A stretch of DNA of 64,000 nt from assembly GCA_021162935.1 (NCBI GenBank), contig JAGGXR010000092.1, forward strand, positions 1-64,000, written 5' to 3'. A program made the translations under genes and the position numbers. This DNA comes from Deltaproteobacteria bacterium (lineage in GTDB: Bacteria; Myxococcota_A; Polyangia; HGW-17; SLPX01). A model generated the notes under the pieces. It saw nothing but the letters and a program-made list of their open reading frames with translations, had not been told where the DNA came from and searched no databases. Numbering within the stretch: the stretch's first letter is position 1; the number at the start of each line of letters is the position of its first letter. Shown here piece by piece: positions 2,851-48,717 of this stretch.

Positions 2851-3004
2851 GGAGCCTGTTCAAAATAGGGTTGCCAATTTGGGACGCCGAGGCGCCCGTC
2901 TGGCGCGAAGCGGTGAGGGCGCGGGTGATACGCAACCGAGGAGCGACAAAGCCAGGTGGGATGGATCGGCGTTCCAGATGATAGACGTATTCTGATCAGA
3001 TCCC
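2851..3004 (+). repeat. Interspersed structured repeat, copy A
   Basis: A non-coding element of about 154 bases that matches the minus strand of 48454-48633 over nearly its whole length; copy B carries an extra internal duplication. It begins GGAGCCTGTTCAAAA right after the DRTGG gene and ends near 3004, 21 bases before the PHP gene, pointing in the same direction. It contains an internal inverted repeat, CCCGTCTGGC (2896-2905) against GCCAGGTGGG (2951-2960), which pairs fully if two G-U wobbles are allowed. The terminal inverted repeat seen in copy B is decayed here. It could be a MITE-like element or a cis-acting RNA; no transposase is nearby. Confidence 0.8.
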
Positions 3005-3025
3005 TAAACCACGACGCGGACCATC

Positions 3026-28349: not shown

Positions 28350-28394
28350 GATGGATCGGCGTTCCAGATGGCAGATTGATTCTGACCAGCCTCC
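28350..28394 (+). repeat. Interspersed structured repeat, right-end fragment (copy C)
   Basis: These 45 bases match the last part of copies A and B (GATGGATCGGCGTTC followed by AGATGGCAGATT and CTGACCAGCCTCC). The rest of the element is absent. It lies 15 bases before the ATG of the next plus-strand gene. The similarity to copy B continues loosely for about eight bases beyond CAGCCTCC. Confidence 0.75.
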
Positions 28395-40318: not shown

Positions 40319-42535
40319 CTATTGAATTTCCACGAGGCCTTCAGAAAGCATGTTCCACAGAGTCCGGACCGTTTCCAGTCGGGACATGCCGGAGATGACC
40401 AGAATTTCATCCACCGTCAGGTTGCCGTCGATCCTCGTGAGCAGGAACGCTGCTCGATGATCGATTCCTGATGTGGTCAAAGCTTCAGGTGTCGCCACAA
40501 CGATGGGAATAGCGTCCACCCCTCCGATTCTCGTCAAGAATCTGTCGGTCAGAGCTGATTGGTTTTGCTTGATGAGTGCCTCGAGATCCGGGTTGGCTCC
40601 CAGGAGTTCTTCCATCTGGCGGCAGAGGCTCAGGGATTCCTCGAATTTCCCGCTGGCATAGAGTTCTGCGGCCTGCTGCAGTTGTTGCGGCACATCCGGC
40701 ACTTCGGCATTTTGGTCTTTGAGATTGCGCCACGCTTCTCGTTCCAGCGTGGGCTGCTCGTCGAAGTCACTGCCGAAATCTTCATTGAGTGAGTCCAACG
40801 AATCCTGGGAGTCGTCTACAGGTATTTCCAGGGAGGTCACCACATGTTCGATGGAGTCGCCCGAAACTTGGAGATGATCCACTCTGCCGATGGTCGGCGC
40901 ATTGTCGTCGAAGTCCGTTCGGGGCGGCGCGGAGACGTTCTCGCCGGTGGCGTGCGTGGGTTCGTTGTCGCCGCCTTCTGTCTGTTCCGGCGCGGCTGAT
41001 TTGGAGGCGGATTTGGCGTCGAAGCTGGCTTTGTCGATGGTGGGGGCATCGTCGAAGTCCAGGTTGCCTTCTATGTCCCGTTCTGGTGTGTCTTGCGACG
41101 TTTTGGAGATGCGGTCTTTCTTCTTGTGGAGCCTGGTGGTCGTGGCGGCGTCGAAGCTGACTTTGTCGATGGTGGGGACATCGTCGAAGTCCAGGTTGCC
41201 TTGTATGTCCCGTTCTGGTGCGTCTTGCGACGTTTTGGAGATGCTGTCTTTCTTCTTGTGGAGCCCGGTGGTCGTTGCGGCGTCGAAGCTGGCTTTGTCG
41301 ATAGTGGGGGCATCGTCGAAGTCATTGTTCGATGCGGCTTGTGATGGGGCAAATTGGTCGTTGCGATCCACGAGAAGCTTGTTCGTTGTTGCTGCATCGA
41401 ATTCGACCTTGCCGATAGTGGGGGCATCGTCGAATTGGACCATGTGGCCGACGGACAGACGAGAAAGGTCGCCAGTTGGTTCTTCGTCGTCTGAAACGGG
41501 AGAGCCGGGAACCCGAGGAGACTGGATTGTGCCGTTGGAATTCTGGTGGACTGGGTGTCCGTTCGTTTCCGCTCCCTGCGACGGATGTACTATTTCAGGG
41601 ACCGGCATTCCCTCCAGCGTCATGGCGGTTCCCACGCGTTCCATATCCACGTACCCGGACGTGAGTAGATTCGAAGGCGACAGAGCCGATGGCTTCGAGT
41701 GAGCCTCGGACACGGCTTTTCCGAAGGCGGTTGCCGGGGCGGGCGATTCATTTGGCAACCGAGCGACCGTGGGAGCATCGTCGTCGAATCCCGATGCGTC
41801 CGTCCGAGACGATCGCGCATTCTCGGATTCAGCCGTTGGCTCGATGTCTTTTCGTGATGGCCTTGTAGCCGTCATCTGAATGTGGGATTGGTCGTCCGTT
41901 TTCGATTCAACTGGAGCCCGTGACGTGGTTACCTCATCGAGGTTTTCGTCGTCGAACGCGTTTCCGAGGTCTTCATCATCCAGATCATCGTCGCCGTCGA
42001 GATCAAGAGGCTCATCGCCGTCCGACGTTTGCTCCTGTTCCAGCTTCGTCGACTCGAATAGGTGGCCTGTCAGGACCATGCCCGAGTCTCCAGGGGGAAG
42101 GGCGTCCAACTCCATGGTTTGAGGTCGGTCACTGTCGGCAGTCAGGGCCTCGATGTCGATGGATTGTTCGTCCTGCCCGGGTAACTCGGCCTCCAATTCA
42201 ATGGCGGATTCGGTTTCCCCCGAGTCGCCAGGAGTTTGTTTCGGCTCGGTTTCTTCGACACCATCGAGCGACTCCGGTTCCTTGTCCATGTTCGCGAAAA
42301 GATTCGGGATGGGATCCGGTATTGAAACGTGCATGCCTGCGGACTTGGCCTTGAGGGCAATGATGTTCGCGTCCAGGAATGCAATGGCTTCTGTGATTGC
42401 CGTTGCGCCCGGTGCCGCTTCGGCTGCTCGAATGAGCTTGAAACGGACCTGATCGAAATGTCCCTTGCGATATTGACGGAACGCCTCCTCGACGAATGCG
42501 CGTGCTTCATCGGAGAGTTTTGCGATGTCGTCCAT
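40319..42535 (-). CDS. Acidic repeat scaffold with C-terminal RIDG domain
   Basis: A 738-residue acidic protein with three parts. Residues 1-65 are helical, TPR-like. Residues about 70-590 are low-complexity and carry seven short motifs of the form D-D/E-x-P-T-[I/V/L] (for example FDDAPTIDK, DAPTVARL, DEQPTLER); four of the later ones belong to units of 38-48 residues, two of them nearly identical 44-residue units. Residues about 625-738 are helical again and end in a roughly 42-residue domain with TRIDGNLTVDEI. The same domain occurs at the N terminus of the J-domain protein at 44732-46297. The Thr motifs could be kinase or FHA targets, which is a guess. The ATG at 42535 has GAAGG ten bases upstream. 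I do not recognise a family for the whole protein. Confidence 0.8.
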   Translation of the reverse strand: MDDIAKLSDEARAFVEEAFRQYRKGHFDQVRFKLIRAAEAAPGATAITEAIAFLDANIIALKAKSAGMHVSIPDPIPNLFANMDKEPESLDGVEETEPKQTPGDSGETESAIELEAELPGQDEQSIDIEALTADSDRPQTMELDALPPGDSGMVLTGHLFESTKLEQEQTSDGDEPLDLDGDDDLDDEDLGNAFDDENLDEVTTSRAPVESKTDDQSHIQMTATRPSRKDIEPTAESENARSSRTDASGFDDDAPTVARLPNESPAPATAFGKAVSEAHSKPSALSPSNLLTSGYVDMERVGTAMTLEGMPVPEIVHPSQGAETNGHPVHQNSNGTIQSPRVPGSPVSDDEEPTGDLSRLSVGHMVQFDDAPTIGKVEFDAATTNKLLVDRNDQFAPSQAASNNDFDDAPTIDKASFDAATTTGLHKKKDSISKTSQDAPERDIQGNLDFDDVPTIDKVSFDAATTTRLHKKKDRISKTSQDTPERDIEGNLDFDDAPTIDKASFDAKSASKSAAPEQTEGGDNEPTHATGENVSAPPRTDFDDNAPTIGRVDHLQVSGDSIEHVVTSLEIPVDDSQDSLDSLNEDFGSDFDEQPTLEREAWRNLKDQNAEVPDVPQQLQQAAELYASGKFEESLSLCRQMEELLGANPDLEALIKQNQSALTDRFLTRIGGVDAIPIVVATPEALTTSGIDHRAAFLLTRIDGNLTVDEILVISGMSRLETVRTLWNMLSEGLVEIQ
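40910..41434 (-). repeat. In-frame repeats in the scaffold gene
   Basis: Tandem in-frame repeats on the minus strand, each unit beginning with the FDDxPTI codons at 41434, 41320, 41188, 41056 and 40912. Two adjacent units are exactly 132 bases (44 codons) and nearly identical, including LHKKKD and ISKTSQD segments; the outer ones are 38 and 48 codons and diverged. Recent duplication of the central unit is likely. Confidence 0.85.
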
Positions 42536-42730
42536 CAAAATTTAGCCTTCCGAAACCGGCTGTCCGGCCCTTCCCTGCGTGTGTCGGCGCAAGAAAACGA
42601 TTGGCTTCTGTGTTGGGACGCCGCTGCAACCCGTGCGTCGGCGTCGAACAACAGGTTCATTCGTTCGCTGTGCGCTTCATTCCTTTTTTGCCTTTCGGGT
42701 GCGTCGCCGCACTCGGTGTAACGAACCTCC

Positions 42731-48185: not shown

Positions 48186-48452
48186 GGTTCTCCATGGTGG
48201 TTTCGAGTCGTGCTCGGCCCAATGCTCGATCCGGACCGGAGCATGGCCATGTATAGTCCTGACGGCTGGTTTTGCAAGGTAGACGAAGCGATTTTTTTGG
48301 CCGGTTGCTCTTTTTGTGGATCGTATTTGCATCGTGGCCTCAGTGTGTCGTGGTCGTCTCGTTGTTCCGAATAGGGAGTTCCTGGAGGGCGAAGATCAAC
48401 AAAAGGCATCTTTCCACCGAGGAGCATTCACGTTAGAATGGGTCTCAGCACA
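48186..48452. other. Leader region upstream of folE2
   Basis: About 270 bases between repeat copy B and folE2. The folE2 frame is open through half of it. I saw no conserved riboswitch core and no strong promoter pair. It is presumed to carry the folE2 promoter. Confidence 0.35.
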
Positions 48453-48453
48453 A

Positions 48454-48633
48454 GGAGGCTGGTCAGAATAAATCTGCCATCTAGAACGCCGATCCATCCC
48501 GTCTGGCTTTGTCGCTCCTCGGTTGCGTACCACCCGGTACGGGTTGCGTACCACCCGGTACGTGCCCTCGTCGCTTCGTGCCAGACGGGCGCCTCGACGC
48601 CCCAAATTGGCAACTTTGTTTTGAACAGCCTCC
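48454..48633 (-). repeat. Interspersed structured repeat, copy B
   Basis: The most complete copy, 180 bases, in minus-strand orientation facing folE2. It is bounded by a perfect terminal inverted repeat, GGAGGCTG and CAGCCTCC (nine pairs if the next A-T pair is counted). Inside is a perfect 10-pair inverted repeat, CCCGTCTGGC (48593-48584) with GCCAGACGGG (48507-48498), and two tandem 21-base units each containing CGTACC-GGGT-GGTACG hairpins. Compared with copy A (2851-3004) it carries the extra tandem unit. No reading frame or transposase is present. It looks like a MITE-like mobile element or a structured RNA. Confidence 0.85.
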
Positions 48634-48717
48634 TAAACGCCGTGTGCTGTGCGTATAATTGGAATAATGATTACTTCGGCGGATATGTGGCAGCTCATGC
48701 GCAGGAGAAATAAGCTC

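Follow-up and report, generated by a model that had tools for sequence, protein, structure and literature searches.

A mobile-looking palindromic element of about 158 bp in several bacterial phyla, with signs of constraint on one folded strand

Bacteria commonly contain small palindromic repeats, and we know of no account of how most of them move. In a table of the properties of bacterial MITEs most have TA at their termini, and the YPAL/RU-2 repeats of Yersinia are given there as about 168 bp long, with duplications of 3 to 26 bp and with internal inverted repeats (PMC2229807). Duplications of the type TWA have been described for PIF/Harbinger elements (PMC4482050). The repeat analysed here was originally predicted to be dispersed and non-coding, to be bounded by terminal inverted repeats and to lack a transposase, and this has been borne out: it is short (154-180 bp), carries terminal inverted repeats and a target-site duplication, and contains no transposase gene, which are features by which MITEs are recognised. 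Most probably, it is a MITE-like non-autonomous element of about 158 bp without genes, which is moved by a transposase acting in trans and whose folded single strand is constrained.

Copies in the window and in its source genome

The window, which is the whole stretch of DNA that was analysed (64,000 nucleotides), contains exactly two full copies according to a covariance model trained on 28 elements, 27 of which are from other genomes. Copy B is located on the minus strand at 48454-48633 (E 9e-26) and copy A on the plus strand at 2851-3004 (E 2e-23). Copy B has the ends GGAGGCTG...CAGCCTCC and, in minus-strand reading, a TTA target triplet on its 5' side (48634-48636) and on its 3' side a TTG (48451-48453), which has one mismatch to TTA. 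Its length of 180 bp exceeds the 159-bp consensus of the source genome by one 21-bp unit, two of these units (CGTACCGGGTGGTACGCAACC; 48521-48562, minus strand) being arranged in tandem at the hairpin tip where most copies have a single one. Copy A comprises 154 bp and has a decayed right end with GATCCC replacing GCCTCC. It is located between the two TAA triplets of its target duplication (2848-2850 and 3005-3007, plus strand), the first of which doubles as stop codon of the upstream ORF 2512-2850, which has a weak match to DRTGG. Fragment C (28350-28394, plus strand) consists only of the right arm and the right end, GATGGATCGGCG...CAGCCTCC, and is followed by TCA. The terminal repeat is found four times in the window compared to 0.44 occurrences expected, and none of the shuffles gave four. 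Copy B on the minus strand is 86-92% complementary to copies A and C on the plus strand. These matches, both inverted and direct, and the covariance model confirm that the minus strand of copy B resembles the plus strand at 2851-3004 and that its end recurs at 28350-28394. The repeat had been placed at 48453-48634; it is real, but each of these limits is one base too wide. In the same window, tandem repeats with a spacing of 114-132 bp are present at 40998-41434 inside ORF 40319-42538 (minus strand) and are unrelated to the element.

The prediction that two copies and a fragment indicate many in the genome also held, because the source genome contains at least 45 matches to copy B, a lower bound as 40 of the 82 candidates from the search were scored, and the end motif is present at 148 sites compared to 18 for a reversed control pattern. 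Thus, the element is neither restricted to two copies nor part of a known RNA or gene: in Rfam it has no match at the gathering threshold and nothing up to an E-value of 5. Because there is no Rfam model, genome annotations presumably miss it. The copies have a mean identity of 92% to the consensus, and therefore the family looks older and relaxed in this genome. Shortened copies with internal deletions or a missing half are frequent: some are palindromes that measure about 41-43 bp and are built from both ends, and others are half elements (L024, L027) starting with GG immediately after TTA or TAA. One copy (L200 on contig C102, about 1830-2024) contains a GGATGGATCGGCGTTCCA-like segment in about seven tandem repeats. 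One mini-palindrome of about 41 bp (L194, contig C48) is located directly upstream of an apparent tRNA gene. Another copy (L277, C130:15500-15658) has GGCTCGCGCAAGAATAAG-type ends like copies in G001, a genome of the same family, and possibly represents a second, older subfamily.

Distribution, target sites and gene context

A pattern scan of species genomes resulted in at least 115 stretches, and those listed include Myxococcales, Bradymonadales, Deltaproteobacteria/Desulfobacterales, Acidobacteria, Gammaproteobacteria (among them Sedimenticola and Wenzhouxiangella) and one Calditrichota. Relatives of 156-162 bp, and thus of near-constant length, are present in Myxococcota, Desulfobacterota, Acidobacteriota and Gammaproteobacteria; the Calditrichota stretch (L163) contains the core without delimited full outer ends. 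Within the phylum of the window, taken to be Myxococcota, the presence is patchy, with the element in 40 of 141 genomes and 37 of 110 genera, and the profile depends on the method, as three genomes (G018, G020, G026) are negative by BLAST and positive with the covariance model. One plasmid, that of Desulfosarcina sp. BuS5, carries the element. It was not found in the phages and viral contigs searched, and the family consensus has no match in E. coli genomes. In G028 the copies show about 99% identity, and in G039 the majority of the 48 ends fit the end pattern exactly, which implies recent spread in these two genomes. For a gene pair in Acidobacterium (L165 compared to L161), the orthologous pair in another Acidobacterium is devoid of the element, although at an identity of only 65% the exact empty site is unreadable. 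Two left-half elements of G039 (L209 and L211, contigs C60 and C164) are broken at the same point and continue with a common CCCGTATCGGTCACCGG before their flanks diverge. A Desulfobacterales contig (L134) contains a distinct repeat-like stretch at about 845-955, which begins with GAGACCTTTGCAAAACGCCCC and is located near an element end.

The original prediction proposed to look for flanking direct repeats, and these were found as target-site duplications. In 94 elements outside the source genome, whose ends had been placed without use of the flanks, 47 have an exact 3-bp TWA duplication, TTA/TTA in 24 and TAA/TAA in 23 cases. Identical triplets of any kind flank 49 of the 94 elements compared to a mean of 20.9 (maximum 33) after permutation, while the next triplets outward are identical in just two of the 94 at each further-out offset. 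Many full copies in the source genome likewise have TAA on both sides or TTA on both sides. Because TTA and TAA are equally frequent, the element is not oriented with respect to its target. Three lineages with other ends have CTA...TAG flanks, meaning that CTAG or TA is duplicated instead of TWA.

All three elements of the window had been noted to point toward the start of a gene, which is literally true for these three; the gene after copy A is a PHP-domain gene and the one after copy B is folE2, and the protein encoded after fragment C has no match in a Pfam search. It is, however, not a trait of the family, as all four arrangements occur in the about 75 intergenic copies counted. All other copies were assigned to the interior of a long ORF or to an edge, and some of these long ORFs will be spurious given a simple ORF caller and GC-rich DNA. 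In the source genome the intergenic copies are arranged as >E> in five, <E> in four, <E< in three and >E< in two cases, and in the other genomes as >E< in 21, >E> in 16, <E< in 13 and <E> in 11 cases, adding up to 21 >E> versus 16 <E< overall. Outside the source genome flanking stops are commoner than flanking starts. A TAA stop codon is abutted by 14 of 61 intergenic copies compared to 8.2% of the intergenic TWA sites being stops, a modest excess that may reflect tolerance of insertions at these sites. The same excess would fit non-mobile regulatory or terminator hairpins selected by the host, but this reading is hardly credible: it is contradicted by the target duplications, by near-identical dispersed copies, by the patchy presence, and by the orthologous gene pair without element.

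The palindrome and its folded strand

The entire element is one long imperfect palindrome, in which outer inverted repeats surround a conserved core hairpin. In an alignment of 28 elements, consisting of representatives below 80% identity and one copy from the source genome, the core reads GAGGCGCCCG at the left and CGGGATGGATCGGCG at the right. Its near-invariance is partly selected for, because the core anchors also served as search pattern, but relatives found by BLAST have this core as well. The outer repeats in this alignment are lineage-specific, with GGAGGCTGTTCAAAAT in the source genome, GGGYYCGC..AARAATAAGTT in most others, and GGCGGCCGGCCACAA in G029, and in further genomes of the phylum a similar core occurs with ends of other types. 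Thus, the core is conserved between phyla and the ends change. The hairpin is supported by covariation, because 34 of the 49 consensus pairs have changed on both sides in a compensatory way, all measures exceed those of 500 out of 500 shuffles, and the signal is lost in controls with slid partners. The original prediction was therefore right about an element with end repeats but missed the hairpin spanning the whole element, the core shared between phyla, and the constraint on one strand.

The two strands of a perfect palindrome fold in the same way, and any difference between the strands must therefore be caused by imperfections of the palindrome. With the top strand defined by the core, G.T mismatches outnumber A.C mismatches in the aligned outer repeats (28 versus 7), in distinct mismatch events (86 versus 41) and in clusters (20 versus 5). 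Counting by cluster is fairer, because the elements share ancestry and copy counts are not independent. Within genomes other than the source genome, stem variants produced G.T in 58 cases and A.C in 25. In the source genome the balance is 19 to 19, which suggests that the constraint is relaxed there. In 109 of 109 copies the more stable fold is that of the top strand, and considering the variable outer arms alone it still folds better in 34 of 36 clusters. In addition, the inner internal loop contains two tandem GA/GA mismatches around a pair that alternates between G-C and C-G; both GA mismatch pairs are present in 15 of the 28 elements, and some other lineages have ordinary pairs at these positions. 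The strand asymmetry supports a role of the folded strand in the movement or the survival of the element.

An ordinary IS5-type MITE, whose fold is incidental and whose parent IS has been lost or is missing from the draft assemblies, seems a somewhat unlikely solution, as it would leave the strand asymmetry even in the variable outer arms unexplained, and because a core conserved between phyla together with varying ends is the opposite of the usual MITE pattern. It would agree with the TWA duplication and the GG...CC ends, and multi-copy IS are often dropped from metagenome assemblies. The top strand might also act as RNA, its folded transcripts being the mobile or functional form of a retro-mobilised element or of a transposon-borne stable RNA. 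The tolerance of G.U-type pairs and avoidance of A.C on one strand, the conservation of the tandem G.A motif with a covarying pair in between, and the near-constant length are consistent with such a scenario. However, a relation to Rfam families is missing, the orientation to neighbouring genes is variable (21 >E> versus 16 <E<), and DNA energy parameters yield the identical strand preference, so that RNA and single-stranded DNA are not distinguishable on this basis; we regard a role at the RNA level as very unlikely.

The mobiliser and comparison with known systems

In the MITE-like reading that we favour, a transposase supplied in trans would cut the ends of the element, and insertion with a 3-bp stagger would generate the TWA duplication. 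From this duplication (PMC4482050) and the GG...CC ends we infer that the enzyme might be of the DDE type and most like those of the PIF-Harbinger/IS5 type. The folded top strand, be it a cruciform, single-stranded DNA or RNA, would be a requirement of the machinery or of the survival of the element, and slippage across the hairpin would leave deletion derivatives, which is how we interpret those observed. The lineages with CTA...TAG flanks speak against this account, and so does the constraint on the folding of one strand, which an ordinary MITE recognised as double-stranded DNA would not need, as well as the absence of DDE_Tnp_1 from two genomes rich in copies, G028 and G029, where no match was obtained at an E-value of 0.001. 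The source genome has nine DDE_Tnp_1 matches, next to which no inverted repeats resembling the element ends were seen, and no match to DDE_Tnp_1_2 (PF13586). A cognate transposase was not found either: a gene-bearing element with matching ends was not seen in the source genome, G028 and G039, although draft assemblies may lose such copies; for the source genome this is based on about twenty of the 148 ends, which were either unpaired or close to another end. The single ends in G028 and G039 are deletion derivatives, solo ends or contig ends. One candidate pair of ends at a distance of 1.2 kb (G028, contig C63) spans an ordinary long ORF, and it was rejected because its translations, judged by eye, do not contain a recognisable transposase.

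Alternatively, a RAYT (HUH, Y1) encoded elsewhere in the genome could move the hairpin in the form of single-stranded DNA, as in REPIN systems. The long hairpin, the one-strand constraint and the conserved mismatches would be in accordance with this, as would the lack of any cognate element with matching ends among those seen and the single Y1 gene of the source genome, and with 29 RAYT-type matches a role in G028 is possible. However, a 3-bp duplication is not expected from HUH insertion. In addition, the presence of RAYT is not correlated with that of the element, as the Y1 protein of the source genome has no match in G039, which is rich in copies, and a merely weak match in G038, whereas G032, whose assembly is 100% complete, has six Y1 matches and no element. 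Next to the Y1 genes inspected in G029, G005 and the source genome lies another repeat, of the AATCAACC..GG type, and a full element core was not seen within 1.5 kb of the fetched Y1 loci. We therefore rejected RAYT as the mobiliser of the family and consider a REPIN-like system quite unlikely. The single RAYT/Y1 transposase gene of the source genome encodes 324 aa (L058, C97:1956-5213, ORF 898-1872 on the minus strand) and is flanked by short repeats with ACCAACCTGGG / TCAACCTGGG, as its homologues in G029 and G005 are by AATCAACCCCGGTGCGG-type repeats. It is a separate REP-RAYT system together with these repeats, and TCAACCTGGG is absent from the window.

A more far-reaching and only tentative reading is a phylum-crossing mobile element that has a conserved strand-specific hairpin, folded as single-stranded DNA or RNA and containing the tandem G.A mismatches, and ends that are exchangeable between lineages, and whose mobiliser is neither a cognate IS nor a RAYT. 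If true, such a mobiliser would constitute a third way to move small palindromes. The family is large and of near-constant size, is found in several phyla, has spread recently and shows measurable selection on one folded strand, and thus the mover of small palindromes becomes testable by comparing element-rich with element-free genomes. The family itself can be called new only provisionally: a description of the element was not found in the openly licensed literature searched, and the seven papers containing an 11-base string from the core all treat unrelated subjects according to their titles and abstracts.

Among the known systems, the bacterial MITEs (Correia/NEMIS, RUP, ERIC, Nezha) are similar in being short and gene-less with terminal inverted repeats, target duplications and many intergenic copies. 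They differ from the present element in that its target is TWA, its core is conserved across phyla while its ends vary, and a parent sharing its ends was not seen. YPAL/RU-2 of Yersinia resembles it in length, palindromic structure, intergenic location, target duplications and the lack of TA at the termini but is set apart by description, because the duplication of the present element is a 3-bp TWA and its repeats reach the very ends. REP/REPIN sequences with their RAYT (PMC3116915, PMC3733652) share the hairpin units, the absence of a gene and a mobiliser presumably acting in trans; unlike these, the present element has a target duplication and does not track RAYT, and the flanks of the inspected RAYT genes bear another repeat. 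Compared by description, the PIF/Harbinger MITEs of the Tourist type have the same 3-bp TWA duplication, but they belong to eukaryotes and thus to another domain of life.
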